Positions 67 through 6,776 of a stretch of DNA of 17,944 nt are shown piece after piece. The DNA is from Oscillospiraceae bacterium (GTDB lineage: Bacteria; Bacillota; Clostridia; Oscillospirales; Acutalibacteraceae). The position numbers and the translations under genes are program-made. The stretch's first letter is position 1; each line of letters starts with the position of its first letter. Below the pieces are notes generated by a model. The model was not told the DNA's origin, made no database searches, and worked only from the letters and a program-made list of their open reading frames with translations. The stretch spans positions 1 through 17,944 of the forward strand of contig WQRM01000008.1 of the NCBI GenBank assembly GCA_009786735.1, read 5' to 3'.

Positions 67-1260
67 CTAACCCAGCGAGTCACAGCGTGTTTGCTCATCG
101 CGAGCAGGCGTTATCTCTTCGTAGCTGCCGAGCACATCAAGCTGTGCGCAGTGCCGCGCGAGCTTCTCAATCATGATGGGATAGTTGGGTGCGGTGGCGT
201 CGCACTCCATGTCGAGATAGAACACGGCATCAAGCGCGTTGCCCAGCACAGGCAGGTTCGTGAGCTTGGTGAGGTTGATTTCCATGCCAGCGATCATCTG
301 CAGGATTTCGGCAAGCGCCCCAGCGTGGTTGGCGAGGGAGATGAGCACACTGCTCTTGTTGGCGCGCGGCGGAATCATCGCCTGCTTGGTGATGCAGATG
401 AAGCGGGTTTGGTTGTCGCTGCGATCCTGAATGTCGTGCTTGAGCACGTTGAGACCATAAAGCTCGGCACATTCCACGCTAGACACCACCGCCACGCCGG
501 GGCGATCCTCTTGCGCGGCGCGCTTGGCGGCGATGGCCGTGTTGTCGCACACGTGCGTGGTCACACGGTCGCCGAGTTTTTGGATGAAACTGTCACACTG
601 GCGCAGCGCTTGCTCGTGCGACCAAATCTCGGTGATGTCTTTGAGGAAGCGCTCGTTGCTCAGCAAGCAGTGGCGCACCGGCAAGCGAATCGCCCGCACG
701 ATGGAGCACTTGTGCTTGCGCAGCAGGTCATACACACGCATCACGCTGCCGTAGGTCGTGTTTTCGATGGGCAGCACGCCGAAGTTGCACAGTCCTTGCT
801 CAACCGCGCGAAAGACCATGTCGAACTCGTGCATGCTGAGGATACGCGGTTGGTCGAACATGTTTCGCGCAGCGATGTGCGAAAACGCGCCCTCCACGCC
901 TTGGCAGGCCACGCTTGCGCCCACCGGCCACGGATCGCCTTGCCCGCGCTCAAGCGCCGCCGCCAACTGCTGGCGCAAGGGCGAGGTTTCTTCGGCCTCA
1001 ACCATCAGCCGATGCTGGCGCGCACGGTTCGCCAAAAATACCGTGCGGTATATCATATTGAGCGGTTGATGCAAGCCCTCGGGTGCATTCTTGCAAATTC
1101 GTTGCAGCACCTCCTGCTCACGCGCCGGGTGATGCACTTGCTCGCCGTCGGCCATTTTTGCTTGTGCCACCTGACTAGCCAGCTCCATGCGCTGTGCCAA
1201 CAGGGGCGCGAGCGCGTCGTCTACGCGGTCGATTTCGCCGCGCAATTCTTCCAGATTCAT
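67..1260 (-). CDS. pheA: Bifunctional chorismate mutase/prephenate dehydratase (P-protein)
   Basis: Converts chorismate to prephenate and then to phenylpyruvate, the committed branch to phenylalanine, in the cytoplasm. Three domains are visible in 397 residues. An AroQ-type chorismate mutase covers about 1-85 (ELRGEIDRVDDALAPLLAQR). Prephenate dehydratase covers about 115-292, with PIENT at 164-168 and the catalytic-type NQTRF at 283-287. An ACT regulatory domain covers about 303-375. The ACT domain keeps GAL (314-316), but the usual ESRP phenylalanine-binding motif reads TNLP (334-337), so feedback inhibition may be weak or altered. The ATG overlaps the methyltransferase stop as ATGA, and a GAGG lies 7 bases upstream. 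It is the last gene of the aro operon, directly before a terminator. No tyrA or trp gene is present in the window. Confidence 0.96.
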   Translation of the reverse strand: MNLEELRGEIDRVDDALAPLLAQRMELASQVAQAKMADGEQVHHPAREQEVLQRICKNAPEGLHQPLNMIYRTVFLANRARQHRLMVEAEETSPLRQQLAAALERGQGDPWPVGASVACQGVEGAFSHIAARNMFDQPRILSMHEFDMVFRAVEQGLCNFGVLPIENTTYGSVMRVYDLLRKHKCSIVRAIRLPVRHCLLSNERFLKDITEIWSHEQALRQCDSFIQKLGDRVTTHVCDNTAIAAKRAAQEDRPGVAVVSSVECAELYGLNVLKHDIQDRSDNQTRFICITKQAMIPPRANKSSVLISLANHAGALAEILQMIAGMEINLTKLTNLPVLGNALDAVFYLDMECDATAPNYPIMIEKLARHCAQLDVLGSYEEITPARDEQTRCDSLG

Positions 1261-1991
1261 CGTGCTACCTCACATACATAAATTTGCTCGCCACCATGGC
1301 GTTTAATCTTGCCTCCGTCGTAGTCGCCGTATTGCTCCACAATGCGAAAACCCGCATCACGTAAGACTTTTCGCAGCTTCCGTGGATACCAATACTTCAG
1401 CGTCAGCGGCTCTTCGATGCGCTGGTTTTCGCCGTGTTCGTACACCATCACCGGGTAGATAATTTGCCGTTTCGTGTCAATGCGCTCGCCAAAACTTTTG
1501 CAGCTCACGCCATCGCGCTCCCAGTGTGTTTTTTCGGGGTAACACCACTTGCGCATACCCTTTTGTGGCACAAAGCAATTGATGATGAAACGCCCGTCTT
1601 TTGCAAGATGGTTTCGCGCATCCTGCAAACAGCCCGCGATGTCCGCGTCCTCCGTCAGCGCCTGAAACGAACGAAACGGGATGATAATCAGCGGGAATTT
1701 CTCGCCCAAATCGAAGCTCGCCATGTTGCCCTGCGTGATGCTGATGCGGTCGCGCACGTCTGGGGCGAGTTGCGGCAGCTTCGCGCGAAAGACATCTAGC
1801 ATTTGCGGCGACAGGTCAAGCCCATGCACGCGCAAACCGCTTTGCGCGAGGGGGATGCTCACCCGCCCAGTGCCGCAAGCGAGCTCCAGGACTGGTCCGT
1901 TTTGTGCATAACGCCGAAAAAACGGTATATCCGCCGCGTATTGATAGTCTAAATCGTAGAAATTAGCCGCATGTTGATAGGTGTTGCTCAT
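1257..1991 (-). CDS. Class I SAM-dependent methyltransferase of unknown substrate
   Basis: A 244-residue Rossmann-fold methyltransferase. Motif I reads LELACGTGRVSIPLA at about residues 35-49, followed by the acidic motif II region GLDLSPQMLD. An IIIPFRSFQAL stretch stands where motif IV is expected. The C-terminal half (LTLKYWYPRKLRKVLRDAGF) has the usual strand-helix pattern of small-molecule methyltransferases. The substrate cannot be read from the sequence. It starts at an ATG inside the aroC stop (ATGA), with GGAG 8 bases upstream, and its own stop overlaps the pheA start in the same way. It is therefore translated as part of the aromatic operon, which suggests a link to shikimate or aromatic metabolism or simple co-regulation. 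No known step of Phe synthesis needs methylation. Confidence 0.88.
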   Translation of the reverse strand: MSNTYQHAANFYDLDYQYAADIPFFRRYAQNGPVLELACGTGRVSIPLAQSGLRVHGLDLSPQMLDVFRAKLPQLAPDVRDRISITQGNMASFDLGEKFPLIIIPFRSFQALTEDADIAGCLQDARNHLAKDGRFIINCFVPQKGMRKWCYPEKTHWERDGVSCKSFGERIDTKRQIIYPVMVYEHGENQRIEEPLTLKYWYPRKLRKVLRDAGFRIVEQYGDYDGGKIKRHGGEQIYVCEVAR

Positions 1992-2956
1992 CGTTCAATC
2001 TCCATCAAATCCAGCAGCACGCAGGCCACAACGGCCTCCACGACCGGCACCGCGCGGGGCACAATGCAGGCGTCATGCCGCCCGCCGATGCGCAACTCAA
2101 CGCTTTCGCGCGCGACTAAATCCACACTCTCTTGTTGCCGCGAAATGGACGGCGTGGGCTTGATGGCCACACGCACGACCAACGGCATACCTGTGGTTAA
2201 TCCGCCCAACACGCCGCCATGGTGGTTAGTGCGTGTGCGAATTTCTCCGTTTTGCACAAAGTATGCATCATTGTTTTGTGAACCTTGCATATCTGCCGCT
2301 GCAAATCCCGCGCCAAATTCCACGCCACGCACTGCCGGTATGCCGAACAGCGCCGCCGCCAGACGATTCTCCACGCCACCGAACATCGGCTCACCCAGCC
2401 CCACCGGCAAGCCTGTGGCGGTGCACTCGACGATGCCGCCAACGGAATCGCCCACGGCTTTGGCGGTTTCAATATCGCCAGTTTTTGTAGCTATTGCGCA
2501 GATTTCGATGCCGCGTTTTTCCAAAATTTGTGCACAAATAGCACCAGCGAAACACAGGGGGGCCGTCAATCGCCCAGACGTGTGACCGCCGCCACGCTTA
2601 TCCGCATAACCACCATGCTTGACAGAAATGGGGAAATCCGCATGCCCGGGACGCGGAATATCGCGCAGAGCATCGTAATCCTGCGAGCGCGTATCGGTGT
2701 TCTCGATGACGGCACACAGCGGCGCGCCACAGGTGGTGTCGTTCACCAAACCGCTGAGAATGCGCGGAATATCCGGCTCTCGGCGGGCAGTATCGCCAGG
2801 GTTTCGACCGGGTGCGCGGCGCGCCATGAAGTCCGAAATCGCTTGTATATCAAGGGTTTCGCCCGCTGGCAGGCCATCGATGACCGCGCCGATAGCCGCC
2901 GAATGTGACTGCCCGAACACGGTGATTTTCACGCGTTCGCCAAAGCTAGAGGCCAT
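1988..2956 (-). CDS. aroC: Chorismate synthase
   Basis: Catalyses the last shikimate step, EPSP to chorismate, using reduced FMN. Recognisable family motifs in 322 residues are FGQSHSAAIGAVIDGLPAGE near the N-terminus, RRAPGRNPGDTARREPD, RPGHADF followed by KHGGYADKRGGGHTSGR, NHHGGVLGGLTTGMP, and GRHDACIVPRAVPVVEA near the C-terminus. It is somewhat shorter than the usual 350-390 residues but appears complete. I chose the ATG at 2956 because TAGGAGGG lies 7 bases upstream; the in-frame TTG at 2962 would be only 1 base from that site. The start overlaps the end of aroA by 11 bases. Its stop overlaps the methyltransferase start, so it is one link in a tightly coupled operon. Confidence 0.96.
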   Translation of the reverse strand: MASSFGERVKITVFGQSHSAAIGAVIDGLPAGETLDIQAISDFMARRAPGRNPGDTARREPDIPRILSGLVNDTTCGAPLCAVIENTDTRSQDYDALRDIPRPGHADFPISVKHGGYADKRGGGHTSGRLTAPLCFAGAICAQILEKRGIEICAIATKTGDIETAKAVGDSVGGIVECTATGLPVGLGEPMFGGVENRLAAALFGIPAVRGVEFGAGFAAADMQGSQNNDAYFVQNGEIRTRTNHHGGVLGGLTTGMPLVVRVAIKPTPSISRQQESVDLVARESVELRIGGRHDACIVPRAVPVVEAVVACVLLDLMEIER

Positions 2957-4061
2957 GCACAATCCCTCCTAATCGCTGATAATCTGCCCAAAAATTGGGG
3001 TATGACTTCGCAACCACTTCTGCGCCATGCAGCGTTACCGGAGCGTCACAATAAAGTGCTGCAATCGCCATCGCCATCGCAATGCGGTGGTCGCCAAAAC
3101 TGTTGACCTCCACGCCGCCGCGCAGCGGTTTTTTGCCGCGAATGACCATACCGTCAGGTAGTTCGGTCACATCTGCGCCCAGCGCGGCAAGATTTTGCGC
3201 CATCGCCGCCAAGCGGTCGCTCTCTTTGATGCGCAGCCGTGCGGCGTTGCGGATTTCGCAGCGCTCGTAGTTCACGGCGGCATAAACCGCCATAATCGGC
3301 ACAAGGTCAGGGCATTGCGACGCATCCATATCACCGCCGAGTTGTAATAATTGCACGATTTCTTTATCTGGTTGAGCGGAATTTTCGTCAAGCCCAACAA
3401 CGTTCAAGCCCGCAGCCAACCAAAACGCAGCGTTTGACCAATCTCCTTCAGGCACGAGGGTGGCAGCCGGCCTGTAAGACCAGTTTTGAAGAACCCAGCC
3501 AATTTGGCTTTTTTCAACGAAAGCGCAAAATTTACCGAGCGTGCGCAACGTCATTTCCACATAACCTGCCGACTCAAGCGGCGAAGTGAGTATGATCTCG
3601 CTGTCTTGCTGCAAAAGAGGCAGCGCAAACAACAACCCTGTGATATACTGCGAGCTGATGTTGCCGGGGAGTTGATAAGTGCCGGGCTGCAGCTGGCCAC
3701 TGATTCGCAGCGGTAAAGTTTCGCCGTTTATCGTGACACCGTGTTGACGCAACAGGCTCAGCAGCGGTTCCAGCGGACGTTCGGGCAGTCTACCCTCGCC
3801 GGTGAAGGTCACCGTGCGCCCCAGCGCCGCCATCACAGGCAGCAAAAACCGAAGTGTTGAGCCACTTTCGCGGCAATTGAGCACGCCGTCGGTCGCCAGC
3901 AGGCAGTCGCGCGTGGCGGCGATGTCTTCGCTGATGATGGGCAACTGGCTGATGTCCTGCCCGGCCAGCCATGCGGCAATCATCAGCCGATGCAGGTCAG
4001 ATTTCGACGGCATGGCAGCGATTTCGCCAGATAGTTTCGCGGGGTGCAGCGTTAGCGTCAT
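2946..4061 (-). CDS. aroA: 3-phosphoshikimate 1-carboxyvinyltransferase (EPSP synthase)
   Basis: Transfers the enolpyruvyl group of PEP to shikimate-3-phosphate. The 371-residue protein shows the duplicated inside-out barrel motifs. MPSKSDLHR (Lys20) is near the N-terminus, followed by CRESGSTLRFLLPV, the RLPERPLEPL loop, SSQYITGLLFALPLL, and CPDLVPIM with the catalytic-type Asp. KESDRLAAMAQNLAALGADV and FGDHRIAMAMAIAALY are near the C-terminus. It is shorter than the typical 420-430 residues, but all core motifs are present in order. In the substrate loop the common GNAGTAMRP or GNSGTT sequence is ESGSTLRF. The ATG overlaps the aroB stop (ATGA), and GGAGGAGAA lies just upstream. Confidence 0.95.
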   Translation of the reverse strand: MTLTLHPAKLSGEIAAMPSKSDLHRLMIAAWLAGQDISQLPIISEDIAATRDCLLATDGVLNCRESGSTLRFLLPVMAALGRTVTFTGEGRLPERPLEPLLSLLRQHGVTINGETLPLRISGQLQPGTYQLPGNISSQYITGLLFALPLLQQDSEIILTSPLESAGYVEMTLRTLGKFCAFVEKSQIGWVLQNWSYRPAATLVPEGDWSNAAFWLAAGLNVVGLDENSAQPDKEIVQLLQLGGDMDASQCPDLVPIMAVYAAVNYERCEIRNAARLRIKESDRLAAMAQNLAALGADVTELPDGMVIRGKKPLRGGVEVNSFGDHRIAMAMAIAALYCDAPVTLHGAEVVAKSYPNFWADYQRLGGIVHGL

Positions 4062-5584
4062 AACTTCTCCTCCAGCATCGCTCTAAAGCTCGAAAGTGGA
4101 AGCGTGCGCAATTCGCACTGCCCAACGCGCAGCGGCACGATGATGGTGATGTCGTCGCCGACGCGTTTTTTGTCCTGCGAAAGCGCGGCGAATAGCTCGC
4201 TCACGGTGAAATCGCAGGTGCTGGGCAGCCCGTTTGCGTGCAGTGCAGCGCACACTTCATCGGTAATCTCGGGGCAAAAAGCCTTGCATATCAAGGTCAT
4301 GCCGATGCCAACCGCCGCGCCGTGGGGTATGGTGTAGCCGCTGACCTGCTCAATCGCGTGGCCAAGTGTGTGCCCCAAATTCAGCAGGCGGCGTGCGCCG
4401 GTGTCGCGTTCATCACCAACCACAACGTCGCGCTTTAACGCGACACAGCGTGCGATTTGCGCCGTGCCCACTCCGCTGCCGTGCGCCAATGCGCTGAATA
4501 GCTCTTCGTCCCACAGAACGCCATATTTGAGGCACTCGGCCACACCGTTTGCGTACTCCGCAGGCGGCAGCGTTGCGTGGGTTTCGGGGTCGCAGATGAC
4601 CAAACTCGGCTGCCAAAACGCACCCACCAGGTTCTTTCCGGCGGGGAGATTCAGCCCAGTTTTGCCGCCCACGCTGGAATCCACAGCCGCCAGAAGGGTC
4701 GTGGGGATTTGCACATAGGCGATGCCGCGACGGTAGGTTGCGGCGGCAAAGCCAGTGAGATCACCCACCACGCCACCGCCGAGCGCGACCAAGATATCGC
4801 CGCCCGTGAGCCCAAACACCGCACTTGCGCGCAAAATCCCCTCGTAACTGGCGAGGGTTTTGTGCTCCTCGCCGGCGTGAAGCGTGAAATATTCACAGGC
4901 GATGCCTGCCGCTTGCAGGCTTTGCAGCGCGGTGTCCACATAACCGCACTTCCACACGTTAGTGTCGCAAATGATGAGCGCCTTTCTCGGCTTTAGCGCA
5001 TCGCGGATTAACGCGCCACACTGCGACAGTAAGCCGCCGCCGATGTGAACATCATAGGCGCGGTCGCCCAAGGGCACATGCACGGTCTGCGCGCGATAAA
5101 CATAGTCCATTTGACACACGTCCTCATCGGTAAGATAGTGTTTTTCCGGCGGGCATGGCGACAGCGGCACAAATCCGCAGCGCGCCAGCATTTTTTTGCT
5201 GCCCACATTGTCGGGGTACACTCCGGCGTGCAGCTCGGTGATGCCCAGGGTTTCGGTTGCGTACTTCGTCGCCAGCGCGAACGCCGAAGTGCCCAACCCC
5301 TGCTTGCGGTAGGCAGAAAACATCCAAATCGCGAGGTCGGCCTCCACTTCGGGTGGCGAAATACCCACAGCCCCGATGATTTCGTCGGTAGCATTATGGC
5401 AAATCATTGCGAAAAAGCGCTGCTTTCGCTCTCGTTGCTGAAATTCTTCAAACGTAGTGGTTAACACATAGTTATAGCCCCGTTGTGTGGCTGGATCATG
5501 CGCATTGTCGTACAATGGGCGGTCATCGCAGGGCTGATATTCCACCAAACTGAGCACTTCGTTTGAGCAATACACAGCTCTCAT
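4058..5584 (-). CDS. aroB: GNAT acetyltransferase - 3-dehydroquinate synthase fusion protein
   Basis: One uninterrupted frame encodes two domains. Residues 1 to about 165 form a GNAT N-acyltransferase of the RimJ/RimL-like type, with acetyl-CoA loop YRKQGLGTSAF (93-102) and YPDNVGSKKMLARCGFVPL (123-141). Residues about 166-508 are a complete 3-dehydroquinate synthase, which converts DAHP to 3-dehydroquinate with NAD and a divalent metal. Its motifs are ALGGGVVGDLTGF (267-279), the Ser/Gly-rich VDSSVGGKTG (301-310), and the expected metal ligands E350, H405 and H421. Stand-alone AroB is about 350 residues. I chose the ATG at 5584: its TGATG overlaps the aroF stop and a GAGG lies 8 bases upstream. 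A GTG at 5587 is also possible. An internal ATG at 5110 (residue 160), with a weak upstream GAGG, could yield a separate AroB, but it lies within the last GNAT strand. The GNAT substrate is unknown. Confidence 0.93.
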   Translation of the reverse strand: MRAVYCSNEVLSLVEYQPCDDRPLYDNAHDPATQRGYNYVLTTTFEEFQQRERKQRFFAMICHNATDEIIGAVGISPPEVEADLAIWMFSAYRKQGLGTSAFALATKYATETLGITELHAGVYPDNVGSKKMLARCGFVPLSPCPPEKHYLTDEDVCQMDYVYRAQTVHVPLGDRAYDVHIGGGLLSQCGALIRDALKPRKALIICDTNVWKCGYVDTALQSLQAAGIACEYFTLHAGEEHKTLASYEGILRASAVFGLTGGDILVALGGGVVGDLTGFAAATYRRGIAYVQIPTTLLAAVDSSVGGKTGLNLPAGKNLVGAFWQPSLVICDPETHATLPPAEYANGVAECLKYGVLWDEELFSALAHGSGVGTAQIARCVALKRDVVVGDERDTGARRLLNLGHTLGHAIEQVSGYTIPHGAAVGIGMTLICKAFCPEITDEVCAALHANGLPSTCDFTVSELFAALSQDKKRVGDDITIIVPLRVGQCELRTLPLSSFRAMLEEKL

Positions 5585-6579
5585 CACTTTGCCCTCACTT
5601 GGTTCACCGCGCGCATCACGTCGTCAAATTGCGCGGGCGTGAGCGATTGCGGGCCGTCGCACAGGGCTTTTGCTGGGTTGTTGTGCACCTCGATCATCAG
5701 CCCGTCAGCGCCCACGGCAGCAGCGGCCACCGCCAACTGCTTCACATAACGCGACACGCCCGTGGCATGGCTCGGGTCAACCACGATGGGCAGGTGCGAT
5801 TTTTCCTTGATCACACACACGGCCGACAGGTCAAGCGTGTTGCGCGTGGCGGTCTCGAAAGTGCGGATGCCGCGCTCGCACAAAATCACCTGCTGGTTGC
5901 CGCCGGCCATGATGTACTCGGCACTCATCAGCCATTCTTGGATGGTATTGGCAAGCCCGCGCTTGAGCAAAATGGGCTTGTTGCAGCGCCCTAGCTCCTT
6001 GAGCAATTCAAAATTCTGCATGTTGCGCGCGCCAACTTGGATGCAATCCACATGCTCGAAGGCAGGCAGATGGCTCACGTTCATGATTTCAGTGACGATG
6101 GGCAGACCGGTTTGCGCTTTCGCTTGAAGCAGCAACTCGATGCCATCATTGCCCATGCCCTGGAAATCGTAGGGCGAGGTGCGCGGTTTGAACGCCCCGC
6201 CACGCAGAATCCCCGCGCCCGAAGCCTTCACCGCTGCGGCAATTTCGCTGACTTGCTCGGGTGATTCCACGCTGCAAGGCCCTGCCATCACCGCAAAATT
6301 GCCCGCGCCGATTTTCACGCCGCCGACCCCCACCACGGTATCGATGGGGTGAAACTTGCGGTTGGCTTTTTTGAATGGCTCCTGCACGCGCTGGACCTTT
6401 TCGACGAAGTCCTGCGCCTCAATGAGGTCGGTGTCGAGCCCTGCGGTGTCGCCAATCAGCCCAAGCACGGTGGAGTGTTCGCCCAGGCTTTGGTGCACGG
6501 CGATGCCTTGTTCCTGCAGCCAGTGCAGCAGCATGTCGAGCTGCTCCTGCATGAAATTTTGTTTAAGTACGACAATCAT
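5584..6579 (-). CDS. aroF: 3-deoxy-7-phosphoheptulonate (DAHP) synthase, type I-beta with N-terminal regulatory domain
   Basis: Condenses PEP and erythrose-4-phosphate, the entry step of the shikimate pathway. The 331-residue protein has a ferredoxin-like, ACT-resembling N-terminal domain (about 1-68, starting [20 protein letters not shown]) of the kind that gives Thermotoga-type enzymes tyrosine or phenylalanine feedback. A TIM barrel follows, with [71 protein letters not shown] and MIEVHNNP. The start at 6579 is fixed by AGGAGG 7 bases upstream; an upstream in-frame GTG at 6681 would run through the leader peptide and terminator and is rejected. It is the first structural gene of the operon and lies directly behind an attenuator terminator. 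Confidence 0.96.
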
Positions 6580-6592
6580 GGTGTTTCCTCCT

Positions 6593-6623
6593 AAAAAAAT
6601 CGCCCGCAGCATTACACTGCGGG
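6593..6623 (-). terminator. Attenuator terminator before aroF
   Basis: On the minus strand CCCGCAG (6623-6617), a 7-base loop and CTGCGGG (6609-6603) form a 7-bp GC-rich stem. CGA and seven T residues (6599-6593) follow, which is a textbook intrinsic terminator. It lies inside the transcript leader, between the promoter and aroF, and its T run ends 1 base before the aroF AGGAGG. It must therefore be bypassed for the operon to be expressed, which marks it as an attenuator. Confidence 0.9.
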
Positions 6624-6692
6624 TTGCATGATATTTCGGGCGTGCCCAAAAGTCTATCGCATACCGCAGCTTGCCCCCCACACGGGGAAGCT
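6617..6692 (-). promoter_or_regulatory. Alternative leader RNA pairings: pause hairpin and antiterminator
   Basis: Segment 1 (6692-6684, AGCTTCCCC) pairs with GGGG (6679-6676) and AAGCT (6672-6668), forming a hairpin inside the leader-peptide coding region. Segment 2 (6669-6664, CTGCGG) overlaps that hairpin and is complementary to segment 3 (6622-6617, CCGCAG), the 5' arm of the terminator. A nearby TGC:GCA match could extend that pairing. The 1:2, 2:3 and 3:4 structures are therefore mutually exclusive, as in trp and phe attenuators. A ribosome stalled early in the leader peptide would free segment 2 and permit readthrough; one reaching the stop codon (6656-6654) would cover segment 2 and allow termination. 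The pairing is seen by eye; the mechanism is inferred. Confidence 0.8.
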
Positions 6693-6719
6693 AAAGTAGC
6701 GGGTAAACGAACGATTCAT
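6654..6719 (-). CDS. Aromatic leader peptide of the aro operon (21 aa)
   Basis: A short frame begins ATG at 6719, 9 bases after AAGGAG (6734-6729), and ends TAG at 6656-6654. It begins MNRSFTRYFSFPVW. Among its 21 residues are three Phe (codons 5, 9 and 11), one Tyr (8) and one Trp (14), far above background and covering all three aromatic amino acids. It lies about 22 bases after the predicted transcription start and before a terminator that precedes DAHP synthase. Its last codons overlap the antiterminator strand. This is the expected layout of an attenuation leader peptide that senses aromatic aminoacyl-tRNA. The stall positions that best free the antiterminator strand are the Phe and Tyr codons; a ribosome waiting at Trp14 would probably cover part of it. 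Phe/Tyr is therefore the more likely signal (inference). Confidence 0.87.
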   Translation of the reverse strand: MNRSFTRYFSFPVWGASCGMR

Positions 6720-6747
6720 TGGGCGCATCTCCTTCAACAGATAAACC

Positions 6748-6776
6748 ATTATAGCACATCTTATGCGCATTGTCAA
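6748..6776 (-). promoter_or_regulatory. Sigma-A promoter of the aro operon
   Basis: Perfect consensus on the minus strand: TTGACA (6776-6771), a 17-base spacer and TATAAT (6753-6748). Transcription should start near 6741, giving a leader RNA of about 160 bases before aroF. A perfect 6-bp inverted repeat (AAGCAG/CTGCTT, 6775-6792) overlaps the -35 box and could be an operator. Confidence 0.92.

Follow-up and report, generated by a model that had tools for sequence, protein, structure and literature searches.

The window, i.e. the whole stretch of 17,944 nucleotides analysed here, comes from an Oscillospiraceae bacterium whose available genome (1.59 Mb) is 71% complete. Its minus strand carries the genes aroF, aroB, aroA, aroC, a methyltransferase gene and pheA, in this order and with overlapping gene ends:

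5584–6579, minus strand: aroF, DAHP synthase (PF00793 and PF18152), with the Shine-Dalgarno sequence AGGAGG at 6592–6587
4058–5587, minus strand: AroB (3-dehydroquinate synthase) carrying an N-terminally fused GNAT acetyltransferase domain
2946–4061, minus strand: aroA, EPSP synthase (PF00275; NCBIfam aroA at 277.8 bits, just below the cut-off of 287.25)
1988–2962, minus strand: aroC, chorismate synthase
1257–1991, minus strand: methyltransferase-domain protein, overlapping aroC and pheA
67–1260, minus strand: pheA, with chorismate mutase and prephenate dehydratase domains

The genome, incomplete as it is, contains one DAHP synthase of the AroF kind. Because the gene ends overlap, a single leader plausibly governs the whole operon from aroF to pheA. 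Upstream of aroF, on the same strand, we find the following elements:

6748–6776, minus strand: promoter of the sigma-70 type, TTGACA (6776–6771), 17-nt spacer, TATAAT (6753–6748), 12/12 match, TG before the -10 element
6729–6734, minus strand: Shine-Dalgarno sequence AAGGAG of the leader, as read from the sequence
6654–6719, minus strand: leader ORF MNRSFTRYFSFPVWGASCGMR, 21 codons from ATG (6719) to TAG (6654)
6698–6696, 6695–6693 and 6689–6687, minus strand: Tyr8, Phe9 and Phe11, predicted sensing codons
6680–6678, minus strand: Trp14, predicted by constrained folding not to sense; Phe5, by the same method, a weaker sensor
6673–6691, minus strand: hairpin P1, 6691–6685 with 6679–6673, the Val13-Trp14 codons at its loop
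6659–6670, minus strand: strand 2, the 5' side of the putative antiterminator, GCTGCGG (6670–6664) and TGC (6661–6659)
6616–6627, minus strand: strand 3, CCGCAGT (6622–6616), pairing with 6670–6664, and GCA (6627–6625), pairing with 6661–6659
6593–6623, minus strand: intrinsic terminator (strands 3:4), stem 6623–6603, spacer CGA, T7 run 6599–6593

The aromatic codons of the leader ORF are Phe5, Tyr8, Phe9, Phe11 and Trp14, and the promoter would place the transcription start near 6741. The T7 run directly abuts the aroF Shine-Dalgarno sequence, ending at 6593 where the latter begins at 6592, and the aroF start codon follows at 6579. The CCGCAGT segment of strand 3 sits within the 5' arm of the terminator, and P1 has an alternative register in the window (6692–6688 with 6672–6668) that overlaps strand 2. 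This anatomy agrees with a first-pass annotation of the locus, which had described a perfect promoter in this place and on this strand, a 21-codon leader with its own ribosome site and with three Phe, one Tyr and one Trp codon, a strong terminator before the aroF AGGAGG, and a strand CTGCGG (6669–6664) that is indeed fully complementary to CCGCAG (6622–6617); to the terminator we add the CGA spacer. Likewise, the fold of the RNA from 6741 to 6580, proposed there as a check, reaches -59.4 kcal/mol (z -2.73), and none of 200 shuffled sequences is as stable. Read-through of the leader into AroF, suggested by an ORF that spans 5584–6681, was considered and rejected, as the leader is in another frame than aroF and stops at the TAG at 6654.

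The mutually exclusive structures proposed in that annotation were examined by folding the window RNA under constraints that place a ribosome at Phe5, Tyr8, Phe9, Phe11, Trp14 or the stop codon, or leave it out. The predicted antiterminator consists of GCUGCGG (6670–6664) with CCGCAGU (6622–6616) and UGC (6661–6659) with GCA (6627–6625), and attains probabilities of 0.99 with the ribosome at Tyr8, 0.76 at Phe9 and 0.99 at Phe11. The terminator is predicted with probabilities of 0.96 for a ribosome at Trp14, 0.75 at the stop codon and 0.96 without a ribosome. Thus, antitermination is predicted for stalls at Tyr8, Phe9 and Phe11, in line with the suggestion that Phe and Tyr are the main signals, but a ribosome at Phe5 would maintain the antiterminator only until strand 4 has been made. 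The ordering of states is the same for assumed ribosome footprints from +11 to +17, with some shifts at the extremes: at +17, the Tyr8 state weakens to 0.50 for the antiterminator and 0.43 for the terminator, and at +11 and +12, a ribosome at Trp14 leaves strand 3 paired upstream (0.77–0.80) until strand 4 has been made.

The idea that one leader senses several aromatic amino acids is therefore supported for Phe and Tyr but, by the predicted folds, not for Trp. A stall at Trp14 is predicted to lead to termination, because no more than 11 nt separate the start of this codon from strand 2; the corresponding distance in the E. coli trp leader is about 17–20 nt. By this model, Trp14 is probably not a sensor in the window. 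Four related leaders (L085, L088, L089 and L093) have a distance of 22 nt between the start of a Trp codon and the GCTG motif that marks strand 2, and judging from this spacing, they may sense Trp. More broadly, 326 of 424 aromatic codons in 47 loci start 21–56 nt before GCTG, 25 start at 6–20 nt and 21 at 3–5 nt, where a Phe codon is itself part of the strand; these counts come without a shuffle control.

To what extent such leaders recur was assessed in aroF upstream regions from the best 80 contig loci among the matches listed and from additional searches in the genus and the family (at most 30 loci each). Of the resulting 123 loci, 119 were distinct, and after exclusion of duplicates and of three loci with less than 400 nt upstream (L062, L092, L094), 116 remained. 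Under a strict rule (regions of at least 400 nt; an ORF with ATG start and Shine-Dalgarno sequence and at least five aromatic codons in 12), 85 of these 116 regions, the window included, contain a leader, compared to 1.45 on average in dinucleotide-shuffled sequences; since the loci were picked by AroF similarity, this proportion is not a frequency for Clostridia at large, and since they are related to each other, the shuffles overstate their independence. A relaxed rule recovers four of the 31 negatives (L009, L012, L025, L079; 1.10 in shuffles), and together with the two loci discussed below (L082 and L083), this brings the count to 91 of 116. The relatives thus bear out the expectation of a leader rich in aromatic codons, and by the same token, such a leader is, contrary to what the first-pass annotation had supposed, not exceptional but frequent before aroF in similar genomes. 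Phe accounts for 17.9% and Tyr for 11.9% of the leader residues, and Trp is present in 17 of the 85 leaders. Promoter-like sites matching at least 10 of 12 positions lie upstream of 66 of them (1.5 in shuffles), and a terminator follows in 83 by a strict rule, compared to 20% of shuffles. This rule misses L013 and the window; in the latter, the CGA spacer parts the stem from the T run; a terminator scan does find the window terminator.

The closest relatives, L082 and L083 (AroF identities of 97% and 96%), at first appeared leaderless, with none within 500 nt of aroF. This was rejected, as the leader sits farther upstream, with hairpin and terminator kept. In both loci, a histidine-phosphatase gene that is absent from the window lies between the attenuator and aroF (885–1490 in L082, 142–744 in L083; the Pfam assignment rests on the L082 protein). 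Separately, Phe/Tyr leaders also precede aroF in two contigs (L012, where the leader starts with TTG, and L057) whose titles name MAGs of Treponema and of Coriobacteriales, which would reflect either horizontal transfer or misbinning.

Within the genus, the structure of the leader can be followed in an alignment of 12 sequences, on which the P1 and terminator structure was itself picked. P1 is paired in all 12 leaders (100% of cells), with double changes at three of its seven pairs, and the terminator helix is paired in 89.6% of cells; RNAalifold, run on the same alignment, returns the same P1 and an almost identical terminator. For P1 and the terminator together, the covariation score is 0.287 compared to 0.171 in shuffled alignments (reached in 0 of 500), and five pairs changed on both sides compared to 2.5 (12 of 500), while the number of further pair types, 12 compared to 11.1 (188 of 500), gives no signal. 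At the changed P1 pairs, U-A and G-C of the other genus leaders correspond to C-G and C-G in the group of the window, and the encoded peptide differs accordingly, with Pro and Gly-Ala in the window group and Ala and Gln-Gly elsewhere. As the double changes alter residues, it is the RNA pairing and not the peptide that has been kept.

This bears on a rival explanation, in which the leader peptide would act in the manner of TnaC, sensing a free aromatic compound from within the exit tunnel and stalling the ribosome. The motif F-A-Y followed by W-Q-G does recur in several genus leaders, but in the window group F-P and W-G-A stand in the place of F-A and W-Q-G, exchanged by the very changes that preserve P1. 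What persists across the wider set of relatives is the composition, not the sequence, with Phe and Tyr runs in differing order, and the leaders before pheS, described below, are Phe-only. We therefore regard nascent-peptide arrest as very improbable, even if it is the strongest of the competing accounts.

The evidence for strand 2:3 pairing is more varied. In the genus alignment of 12 sequences, this stem shows no covariation, whichever of the two registers is used. In the larger set of 83 loci with leader and terminator, TGCTG[CT] follows the aromatic run in 31, compared to 3.5 in shuffles. When 45 loci are aligned on GCTG and CAGY, the helix extends in the 5' direction into the terminator loop: the pairing at offsets -5, -4, -2 and -1 is reached by 0, 11, 7 and 5 of 2000 shuffles, respectively, and that at offset -3 (229 of 2000) and at the 3' offsets +5 to +9 is no better than in shuffles. 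Terminator pairing by itself would not account for these partners of strand 2, because part of them falls in the terminator loop. Furthermore, strands 2 and 3 of the same locus pair better on average than foreign combinations (0 of 5000 permutations), but only in eight loci, where five are expected, does the own arm rank within the best five of 83, and the duplex energy of the individual locus is significant (p ≤ 0.05) in just 14 of 83. These comparisons, too, treat related loci as independent. The window belongs neither to the 45 loci nor to the set of own and foreign pairs, because the strict terminator rule had dropped it. Of the covarying stems that the annotation had proposed to look for, the 3:4 terminator is supported when scored together with P1, but the 2:3 stem is not in the genus and is at some offsets in the 45 loci.

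The constrained folds of other genus leaders are likewise divided. At equilibrium, a stall-dependent switch is absent in nine of 10, L082 being the only one with a terminator probability below 0.5 in a stalled state; the lowest such value among the other nine is 0.65 (L088, at Tyr12), and L086 has a terminator probability of 0.37 without a ribosome, the wrong direction for the model. The order of co-transcriptional folding might account for these nine failures. The mutual exclusion of antiterminator and terminator by ribosome position is therefore predicted for the window and L082 and finds support in the 45 loci, but not in nine of 10 other genus leaders.

With a model built from the genus alignment (R1), similar elements can be sought irrespective of aroF. 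R1 matches 13 of 14 genus genomes, 12 of which had supplied its sequences; the remaining genome (G009) may have its leader off the contig, as its aroF starts 154 nt from the contig end. In the family, 20 of 150 genomes match, two of which belong to the genus. Of the matches beyond the genus, 10 have E-values of at most 1.5e-4, and nine of these lie directly before aroF (G060, G042, G053, G027, G140, G156, G058, G114 and G057), the exception being G076; among the weaker ones, only that in G102 is before aroF. Further weak matches are L220, L221 and L222.

Three strong genus matches lie outside the training set and away from aroF, each with a P1-like hairpin and a terminator. Two of them (L217 in G005:C286 and L218 in G007:C25) precede pheS (TIGR00468 above the cut-off), with a pheT-like ORF behind, and Phe is the sole aromatic residue of their leaders; among pheS upstream regions of the genus, a leader of this type is present in two of 13. 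The third (L216 in G005:C431, leader at 784) is likewise Phe-only and precedes a gene similar to phenylacetate-CoA ligase (paaK-like; TIGR02155 at 547 bits, under the cut-off of 646), which may contribute to making Phe from phenylacetate. Moreover, leaders rich in Ile, Leu and Val precede ilvB in three of its 14 genus loci (L236, L245 and L249), one of them with a run of IIIII. Each is followed by a terminator, and equally rich leaders occur in 1, 0 and 1 of 300 mononucleotide shuffles, respectively, for these loci picked after looking. The acetolactate synthase assignment of ilvB was borne out for L219, which scores 528.6 bits (cut-off 538.35) with its sequence cut by the locus end. R1 finds just one of the three ilvB leaders, L236, and that weakly, so that their common descent is unproven. 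Upstream of the pheS (L228) and ilvB (L248) genes of the window genome itself, we found no such leader. As read from these sequences, the codons of the leaders follow the function of the gene behind them, Phe before pheST and the paaK-like gene, and Ile, Leu and Val before ilvB.

This agreement also weighs against a second rival, in which a protein or small ligand binds the RNA fold, P1 in particular, and the leader ORF is incidental. Such a reading would account for the compensatory changes and the presence of P1 in 12 of 12 genus leaders, but not for codon content that follows gene function, nor for an aromatic enrichment that extends beyond the genus; moreover, the window matches no Rfam family at gathering score. 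We consider it slightly less probable still than peptide arrest. No better placed is a leader peptide that acts mainly on aroF translation or via Rho, with the hairpin as a minor or constitutive terminator: the T run of the window does abut the aroF Shine-Dalgarno sequence, but this sequence lies outside the hairpin, hairpin and U tract accompany 83 of 85 leaders, and in L082 and L083 another gene follows the hairpin.

We thus consider it very likely, from sequence and modelling, that the aroF leader is a ribosome-mediated transcription attenuator that senses Phe and Tyr. It combines a leader ORF with its own Shine-Dalgarno sequence upstream of the operon, codons for amino acids that the operon makes, a feature that recurs in the relatives far above shuffles, and an intrinsic terminator between the leader and the first gene. 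Together with the exclusive antiterminator predicted for the window, the conservation and the match of codons to gene function, this supports the attenuation of the trp/phe type that the first-pass annotation had proposed. RNA polymerase would start near 6741, with a ribosome translating the leader closely behind. A shortage of charged tRNA-Phe or tRNA-Tyr would make the ribosome wait at Tyr8, Phe9 or Phe11 and open the leader hairpin, so that strand 2 (6670–6659) could pair with strand 3 (6627–6616), no terminator would form, and aroF to pheA would be transcribed. With ample Phe and Tyr, the ribosome would reach Trp14 or the stop codon and cover strand 2, or it would leave and the leader hairpin would take up strand 2; in either case, strands 3 and 4 would form the terminator. 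The anatomy, the conservation, the pairing potential and the predicted switch of the window are drawn from the sequences; the coupling, the stalling, the efficiency of termination and the response to each amino acid are what we infer from them.

In low-GC Gram-positives, aromatic amino acid control is usually ascribed to T-boxes, and in Bacillus also to TRAP. The T-box (RF00230) resembles the aroF leader in that it reads tRNA charging and sits before aroF in some genomes, but it binds the tRNA itself and works without a leader ORF. At the window leader, there is no T-box match at gathering score, and the best of the Rfam leader families, Leu_leader, reaches 14.3 bits (cut-off 50), outside family membership. 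Likewise, 20 genus and family loci yield only one tRNA at gathering score, and 18 loci negative under the strict leader rule, one of which (L009) is positive under the relaxed rule, yield no Rfam match. The window genome does have one T-box match just before trpE (L124, 1501–1731, in G000:C3; 72.2 bits, below the gathering score of 93), with UGG at what appears to be the expected specifier position; the TrpE behind it scores 465.6 bits, under the cut-off of 517.7. T-box matches occur in 13 of 14 genus genomes, three of them over the cut-off, and a TrpE-like gene is present in eight of 20 fetched genus T-box loci.

A wider view is given by the best 60 aroF regions from 216 genomes of the phylum with a match, which represent the top of the similarity list rather than a random sample. 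All 60 were scanned, and eight have a T-box above the gathering score before aroF: one of the 27 with the most window-like aroF (L166), and seven of the other 33. Relaxed-rule leaders are present in 16, with the opposite distribution: 12 of the 27 most similar (1.30 in shuffles) and four of the other 33 (1.00 in shuffles), the latter four (L191, L193, L195 and L202) being doubtful. None of the eight T-box regions contains such a leader. Given this and the opposite split by similarity, leader and T-box look like alternatives before aroF. Accordingly, the expectation of a T-box in an organism of this type holds before trpE in the same genome and before aroF in eight of the 60 regions, but not at the leader described here.

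The mechanism as such is known. The enterobacterial pheA, pheST (pheM) and trp attenuators have a brief leader ORF enriched in end-product codons, strands whose pairings exclude one another and an intrinsic terminator before the operon; pheST, too, is under such control there. The aroF leader shares the ORF and the terminator with them and, as predicted for the window, the exclusive strands; it differs by its lineage, its mixed Phe/Tyr(/Trp) codons, the DAHP synthase operon behind it, a P1 with codons in its loop and the lack of a match to an Rfam leader family.

Among described elements, uORFC-13-1 before aroF of Acholeplasma comes close, having a Phe-codon uORF, a possible promoter and an adjacent terminator, with the same mechanism proposed (PMC8632094). 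It comprises 24 sequences from Acholeplasma and environmental DNA only, and the section devoted to it, on whose description our comparison rests, names neither Tyr nor Trp (PMC8632094). Upstream of shikimate genes, a study of five genomes, Clostridium novyi among them, reported two candidate uORFs containing Phe and Tyr; they share the codons and the gene class, and the passage on them names neither genome nor gene (PMC6429828). Leader-peptide attenuators of Gram-positives, but for other amino acids, operons and lineages, are the his operon leaders of some Firmicutes (PMC9413887), the trp leaders of Actinobacteria (PMC1262725) and the ilvB uORF of Corynebacterium (PMC11109978). Among the open-access titles and abstract beginnings listed by our literature searches, none describes the aroF leader family or P1, nor the pheST, paaK-like and ilvB elements. 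The mechanism is ribosome-mediated attenuation; the leader family before aroF appears, by these searches, to be new.

It is conceivable, though on balance we would not presume it, that in one branch of the Clostridia, copies of an attenuator core, composed of the P1 leader with codons in the hairpin loop, the GCTG strand and the CGCAG terminator, have spread between operons and been retuned by codon swaps, displacing T-boxes on these operons while trpE kept one. If true, the core would have come to carry Phe/Tyr(/Trp) codons at aroF and Phe codons alone at pheST and the paaK-like gene, with Ile/Leu/Val leaders before ilvB. The apparent alternation of leader attenuator and T-box before aroF in part of the Clostridia makes such a regulatory replacement testable, and as the leaders vary naturally in their Phe, Tyr and Trp codons, they would allow a dissection of how one element senses several amino acids.
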